Of a DNA stretch of 64,000 nt, positions 3,940 to 61,165 are shown one piece after another. Numbering within the stretch: the first letter of the stretch is position 1; every line of letters begins with the position of its first letter. Below the pieces are notes generated by a model. The model was given only the letters and a program-made list of their open reading frames with translations, did not search any database and was not told the origin of the DNA. A program made the translations under genes and the position numbers. Location of the stretch: contig QCHI01000001.1 of assembly GCA_003279655.1 (NCBI GenBank), positions 1 through 64,000 on the forward strand. Reading direction: 5' to 3'. The DNA comes from Prochlorococcus sp. AG-402-A21. Its GTDB lineage: Bacteria > Cyanobacteriota > Cyanobacteriia > PCC-6307 > Cyanobiaceae.

Positions 3940-5049
3940 ATGACAGACCTAGTTATTCTGGTTTTATTTCTCATAACAGGTGCAATCACCGGATGGATTG
4001 GTGTGAATTGGTTACCTGAAGAGACTCTAGATAAAATTACTAATCTTAAAAATTTAAAAATTGCTCTTTCAGGATTAACAGCTCTTGTAGGTATTTTAAT
4101 CGCCTTCCTGTTTCAGCAATTTAGAAATAAATTAACTAAAAGAATAAGAACTATGCCCACGGATTTACTGGTTAGTAGATCCGTGGGCATAGTTCTTGGA
4201 CTTGTCATAGCAACTCTTTTATTAGTACCTGTACTGCTTTTACCTTTACCCGATGAATTGTTTTTTGTAAAGCCTATTTTTGCTGTACTTAGCAACATTT
4301 TTTTCGGAGTACTTGGATATAACCTTGCAGATGTTCATGGTCGAACGGTTTTACGTCTTTTCAATCCAAATAGCACTGAATCTTTGCTAATGGCAGATGG
4401 AATCCTAACTCCAGCCAGTGCAAAAGTTTTAGATACAAGTGTAATAATTGATGGTCGAATTCAGGCCCTAATTAAATTTGGACTAATAGAAGGGCAGATA
4501 ATTGTAGCTCAATCAGTTATGGATGAGCTACAAAAACTAGCTGACTCAAGTAACAACGAGAAACGAGGGAAAGGAAGGAGAGGGCTTAAATTGCTTAACC
4601 AATTAAGAGAAAGTTATGGAAGAAGATTAGTTATCAACAGTACAAAATATGAAGGAGACGGAACTGATGAAATTCTTTTAAAATTAACCTCAGATATTTC
4701 CGGAATATTAATAACCGTTGATTACAACTTAACTCAAGTAGCTCTAGTCCAAGAAATAAAAGTTCTTAACTTAAGTGAACTAGTTCTTGCAGTTAGGCCT
4801 GAGGTTCAACCTGGTGAGAAGTTAAATTTAAAAGTAGTTAGAGAAGGTAAGGAAAACTCACAAGGTATTGCTTATCTTGAAGATGGCACAATGGTAGTTA
4901 TCGAGGAGGGTTTCCAATGGATCGGTAAAAGAATAGAAGTAGTTGTGACTGGAGCATTACAAACACCGACGGGCCGAATGGTTTTTAGTAAAGCTTCCAA
5001 TGATCAGCCCCCGAACAAATTTGAAAAAACAAAAGCATCTCAAGGCTAG
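3940..5049 (+). CDS. PIN/TRAM domain membrane protein (YacL-like)
   Basis: N-terminal TM helices, PIN core (LDTSVIIDGRI ... VMDELQKLADS ... ITVDYNL), C-terminal TRAM-like GIAYLEDGTMVVIEEG. Confidence 0.9.
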   Translation: MTDLVILVLFLITGAITGWIGVNWLPEETLDKITNLKNLKIALSGLTALVGILIAFLFQQFRNKLTKRIRTMPTDLLVSRSVGIVLGLVIATLLLVPVLLLPLPDELFFVKPIFAVLSNIFFGVLGYNLADVHGRTVLRLFNPNSTESLLMADGILTPASAKVLDTSVIIDGRIQALIKFGLIEGQIIVAQSVMDELQKLADSSNNEKRGKGRRGLKLLNQLRESYGRRLVINSTKYEGDGTDEILLKLTSDISGILITVDYNLTQVALVQEIKVLNLSELVLAVRPEVQPGEKLNLKVVREGKENSQGIAYLEDGTMVVIEEGFQWIGKRIEVVVTGALQTPTGRMVFSKASNDQPPNKFEKTKASQG

Positions 5050-44348: not shown

Positions 44349-44389
44349 AACCAATAAAAAAGGGGCTATCAGCCCCTTTTTTATTGGTT
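44349..44389. terminator. Bidirectional rho-independent terminator between convergent genes
   Basis: Perfect 19-bp inverted repeat AACCAATAAAAAAGGGGCT-atc-AGCCCCTTTTTTATTGGTT with flanking A/T runs. Confidence 0.92.
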
Positions 44390-61117: not shown

Positions 61118-61165
61118 AATTATTATTTTTAAAGGATTTAACAAAATCCTTTAAAAATAATAATT
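61118..61165. repeat. Perfect 22-bp inverted repeat with 4-nt loop
   Basis: AATTATTATTTTTAAAGGATTT (61118-61139) / AACA / AAATCCTTTAAAAATAATAATT (61144-61165). Confidence 0.95.

Follow-up and report, generated by a model that had tools for sequence, protein, structure and literature searches.

The window analysed here is the whole stretch of 64,000 nucleotides at the start of contig QCHI01000001.1 from Prochlorococcus sp. AG-402-A21, read on the forward strand. At 3940..5049 (+ strand) it contains an open reading frame for a yacL-like protein of 369 amino acids with an N-terminal membrane part, a PIN domain and a TRAM domain. Both domains were found above the Pfam cut-off (PF13638 (PIN_4) at residues 163-277 and PF01938 (TRAM) at residues 289-338), and yacL orthologs are present in nearly all Cyanobiaceae searched. 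Inside this protein gene lies a near-perfect inverted repeat, both arms of which are translated and conserved, and the arms change together between relatives.

The 5′ arm (AAGAACTATGCCCACGGATTTACT, 4146..4169, codons 69-77) and the 3′ arm (AGTAGATCCGTGGGCATAGTTCTT, 4174..4197, codons 79-86) enclose a GGTT loop (4170..4173), made of the third base of codon 77 and codon 78, a variable V/I/F/L position; all three elements are on the + strand. The 24-bp stem has 23 Watson-Crick pairs and one G-U pair, with arms 96% complementary. Inspection of the sequence and an inverted-repeat search bear out the hairpin sequence, arms, wobble and loop that an earlier note on this DNA had described. As that note had also remarked, both strands can be read as a similar peptide; the reverse strand gives RTMPTDLLTSKSVGIVL in frame, and minus-strand self-matches in searches agree. 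In the mRNA folding that the note had suggested, the hairpin reaches -43.8 kcal/mol with a z of -9.45 (0/200 shuffles equally stable), and when folded as single-stranded DNA, it has a z of -9.71.

Among near-perfect inverted repeats of the window whose arms lie within 120 nt, the stem is the longest. Nor does any coding hairpin equal it in the roughly 1.26 Mb sampled, comprising the window and 1.2 Mb of a relative (G033), where the next coding stem has 17 bp and every intergenic hairpin listed is shorter than the yacL stem. On reading the protein sequence, the hairpin falls in the loop between the predicted second and third membrane helices. An Rfam search of the hairpin returned sub-threshold chance matches only, with none above the gathering score, and a promoter and terminator scan at the hairpin found no sigma-70-like promoter and no terminator-like site.

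In this stem, third codon positions lie opposite third positions, and first positions opposite second (3-3 register). A palindromic coding sequence is possible for the peptide RTMPTDLLxSRSVGIVLG, with its third codon positions paired to each other. Because this register is combined with a conserved peptide, 16 of the 24 pairs are set mostly by amino acids, and eight are left to synonymous choice. When the protein was held constant and synonymous codons were sampled from the window's own usage, the mean was 15.1 Watson-Crick pairs out of 24, and the probability of at least 23 was about 1e-5.

The comparison of relatives used 34 distinct stem-covering sequences within the genus and 77 outside it. 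Within the genus, matched codon pairs occur in three sets: CCA/GTT, CCC/GTG and CCT/ATA; ACT/ATA, ACA/ATT and ACG/ATC; and ACA/TCT, ACG/TCC, ACC/TCG and ACT/TCA. At the eight 3-3 pairs, 10 double changes from one Watson-Crick pair to another were counted on the tree, compared with 0.38 for change-matched random third positions, and shifting the partners by 1-4 codons leaves just 0-2. With 70 AT-rich outgroup sequences from other genera added, the genus has 12 double changes against 0.47 expected (0/1500), and the other genera have 5 against 3.4.

An independent pair-counting tool gave a covariation of 0.112 versus 0.046 for shuffled data (0/500). Pair counting on 28 rows found 95.7% paired, with 18 cells changed on both sides versus 3.9 when shuffled, while slid pairings were 32-45% paired. 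The arms of the palindrome thus evolve in concert. The nucleotide alignment of relatives, a test proposed in the earlier note, finds that protein and stem are both kept and that synonymous changes are compensated, excluding a coding coincidence or a strain-specific palindrome, the outcome that the note had named as refuting.

The stem is retained across about 33 related Prochlorococcus species, while the rate of synonymous change within it is normal. Its inner 14-bp half (PTDLL/SRSVG, 4156..4187, + strand) is possible family-wide, as the peptide is conserved. Nearly all sequences of other genera have GLIL after the SRSVG motif, permitting just these inner 14 bp, whereas the genus has GIVL, written GGC AT. 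GTT CTT, which lengthens the stem by 10 bp. Requiring GIVL in place of GLIL, the outer 10 bp are essentially genus-specific, and GGCAT in the sense direction is confined to this genus, apart from a single genome of another genus (G063). The stem is gained and lost among species: the outer stem is absent from other genera and from two basal lineages (L029 and L030), and the stem is damaged in two more (L026 and L014). Persistence through the genus together with such loss and damage thus suggests, from the sequences compared, a stem that is long-lived yet dispensable. For the outer stem (GGATTAATACTT to GGCATAGTTCTT), an origin in one multi-base step was weighed and set aside: GGCATT is already present in a sister lineage (L088), so the outer stem may have arisen stepwise.

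A selected structure in sense RNA is expected to favor G.U over A.C departures and to slow synonymous change. Neither mark was found at the stem. Departures from pairing were 10 G.U and 10 A.C, which rejects an expectation of 75% G.U (p 0.017) or 90% G.U (p 7e-6), both expectations being of our own choosing. Third positions of stem codons had 80 substitutions, where codons for these amino acids at other places would predict 73.4, so there is no slowdown. In one reconstruction, the matched double changes comprised 5 transitions and 10 transversions, not different from the 208:291 at ordinary 4-fold sites, so the matched changes did not arise mainly via G.U steps.

The balance of departures, the rate and the spectrum would all fit one arm being copied from the other on top of ordinary neutral mutation. 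Selection may be compatible with them as well if it acts on DNA or on antisense RNA, or if it is strong and compensation follows quickly. The earlier note had offered three readings, namely an mRNA structure recognized by a nuclease, a translational pause and a trace of template switching. The last fits the pattern of changes better than selected sense-strand RNA does, given the equal A.C and G.U counts, the absence of slowdown and the ordinary ratio of transitions to transversions.

A second case was found in a HlyD-family secretion-protein gene unrelated to yacL (L313:6204-6241), which contains a 17-bp hairpin in the same 3-3 register. This hairpin is likewise retained, with 5 matched changes against 0.14 expected (0/2000), and its departures are 10 A.C and 4 G.U. 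One matched change affects amino acids on both sides, Asn-to-Ser with Val-to-Ala.

We consider it somewhat probable that the yacL element, a coding palindrome, has been maintained because its own arms evolve in concert as DNA, via template-switch correction, with no function of the hairpin needed. This could proceed as follows. First, the peptide RTMPTDLLxSRSVG[I][V]LG would be nearly self-complementary by chance of the genetic code in the 3-3 register. Second, the palindrome would have been lengthened to about 24 bp in this Prochlorococcus genus. Third, synonymous mutations newly arising in one arm would often be copied into the other one or else erased from it. Fourth, DNA polymerase probably switches template within the hairpin at replication, as in quasipalindrome correction. 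Fifth, selection on the protein would purge copies that alter important residues. While the concerted evolution is observed, we infer template switching as its mechanism and the lack of need for a hairpin function. Correction of DNA arms is favored over a selected mRNA structure because A.C and G.U departures are 10:10, synonymous change is not slowed, the stem is lost in some lineages, and the HlyD-family gene behaves alike.

The main rival is a selected functional hairpin, which we regard as a serious candidate, if a rather improbable one. It could act as a structure in yacL mRNA (as a site for RNase III or the PIN nuclease, in autoregulation, or as a pause for ribosomes between membrane helices two and three), as antisense RNA, or as DNA (a cruciform or a protein site). 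Selected structures are classically recognized by compensatory changes, and the stem persists through the genus despite many synonymous changes per site. The location between predicted membrane helices would suit such a role, and a frozen stem in aroH, described below, suggests that selected coding hairpins exist in the genus. On the other hand, the two marks expected of selected sense RNA are missing, several lineages have a damaged or lost stem, other genera with the same protein have no excess of covariation, and the Rfam, promoter and terminator searches at the hairpin gave nothing. A role as antisense RNA or DNA is less constrained by the argument from G.U and A.C.

A coding coincidence, in which the conserved peptide and AT-rich codon bias alone render the arms complementary, could draw on the 16 pairs mostly set by amino acids, on the roughly 15 pairs that random codons already form and on the inner 14 bp also found in other genera. 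It is nevertheless very improbable, as random codons almost never reach 23 of the 24 pairs, rare codon pairs (CCC/GTG and ACG/ATC) co-occur, and the double changes, the outgroup test and the independent covariation count all contradict it. Equally hard to credit is recombination, by which a few matched arm variants would have spread between species as single alleles, so that too many independent compensations would be counted. With nine forks of the gene tree open, common descent or transfer may account for some P73/V82 events, but several different matched states (A-T, C-G, T-A and G-C) are found at one and the same pairs against differing backgrounds, change-matched control columns with the same tree and tree error give only 0.4, and the initial matching of the arms would be left unexplained.

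Arm correction by template switching has its own difficulties. No correction event was caught in the act. No loop inversion was seen by eye among the aligned sequences of the genus, and neither a clear one nor a single multi-pair jump was demonstrated; one sequence (L001) differs at two neighboring pairs, possibly by separate events. Fast compensation could also result from strong selection acting on a very large population. A perfect 15-bp coding hairpin in a cysteine-desulfurase-like gene (called nifS) decays without compensation, and a 15-bp coding hairpin in aroH (chorismate mutase) is frozen and not homogenised. When arms of stems of at least 8 bp with short loops were compared with equally complementary distant arms between two genomes (321 genes, or 320 without yacL), matched changes in the 320 genes were about 2.4 times as frequent in nearby arms as in distant ones, a weak effect with p 0.03-0.08. 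These p values are from the one-direction count; a two-direction count (p 0.004) counts shared stems twice and was not used. An apparent strong excess for stems of at least 12 bp came from yacL itself and was discarded.

The aroH hairpin is located at L185:1310-1342 in the relative G033 and at G000:C14:14471-14499 (L207, L415) in the window's own genome. In 30 genomes of the genus, its third-position minor fraction is 0.018, compared with 0.181 for the remainder of aroH (0/104 windows as low), and among 61 genomes of the family, the hairpin is found only in this genus. It looks selected and is a candidate for an overlapping functional element. A 14-bp hairpin in ftsW has two matched changes versus 0.04, but its stem is mostly broken. 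Arm correction across coding hairpins thus looks real but, given the decaying nifS hairpin and the frozen aroH one, not universal. Tentatively, short bacterial coding palindromes may be self-maintaining elements: with a 3-3 register and about 17 bp or more, their arms could be kept matched by replication errors for as long as a genus lasts, giving rise to covariation like that of RNA, and even to matched amino-acid changes, with no selected structure behind them. This generalization is quite conceivable, although we hold it with less confidence than the account of yacL itself.

Several other hairpins were observed. A palindrome in ctpA (S41 peptidase, L178:15235-15274) is present only in G033, where a dense substitution cluster makes the arms complementary; either a recent template switch or recombination of this patch may lie behind it. 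A 14-bp coding hairpin (L304:821-857) is identical in G033 and G025. Between genes of the window, an AT-rich hairpin of perfect 22 bp with a four-base loop lies in a gene-poor stretch (61118-61165). A perfect 19-bp intergenic hairpin (44349-44389), with an AGCCCC stem followed by a T run, is probably a terminator for both directions.

Covariation is the standard proof of functional RNA structure. If arm correction holds, the yacL stem would be a natural case of abundant compensation without G.U preference or slowed evolution, and hence a concrete counter-example to this use of covariation. It would also mean that template switching shapes a bacterial gene over long times, and would call for caution against taking such stems or matched amino-acid changes for adaptation. 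If the hairpin is functional instead, it would be a conserved regulatory element in a gene without known role. In the open-access literature, we came across no bacterial coding palindrome that had been tracked over a genus as here, and nothing relevant on yacL PIN/TRAM proteins with RNA or on template switching in Prochlorococcus.

With conserved RNA structures in coding sequences, the yacL stem shares compensatory synonymous changes; unlike them, it has no G.U preference, no slowdown and no family match. A closer likeness is found in mitochondrial genes of Nematomorpha, whose coding palindromes have concerted arms and for which non-specific repeat conversion by template switching was proposed (PMC6649704). 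There too, inverted repeats lie in protein genes, both arms code for conserved residues and evolve in concert, and palindromes are gained and lost between species. The nematomorph palindromes are perfect, up to 284 bp long, numerous and mitochondrial, with the longest ones keeping clear of the 3-3 codon register. By contrast, the yacL palindrome has 24 bp, belongs to a bacterial chromosome and uses the 3-3 register, and the concert of its arms shows mainly as synonymous covariation.

In quasipalindrome correction, as far as it is summarized where PMC6649704 and PMC8604942 cite it (Ripley 1982; van Noort 2003; Lovett 2017), nearby imperfect inverted repeats are perfected by arm copying. As in our proposal, it acts on DNA, and no G.U preference would be expected. 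In those summaries, it usually appears as single events or reporter-gene hotspots, while in yacL we infer long-term upkeep over dozens of species. Template switching also homogenises inverted-repeat arms in yeast genes (PMC8604942), and has been proposed to create and maintain RNA stems, including those of rRNA (PMC8794818). These cases and yacL are alike in arm homogenisation inside genes, and the yeast and rRNA cases show matched multi-base changes. They are, however, eukaryotic or ribosomal and concern individual branch events, whereas in yacL one palindrome is traced through a genus.
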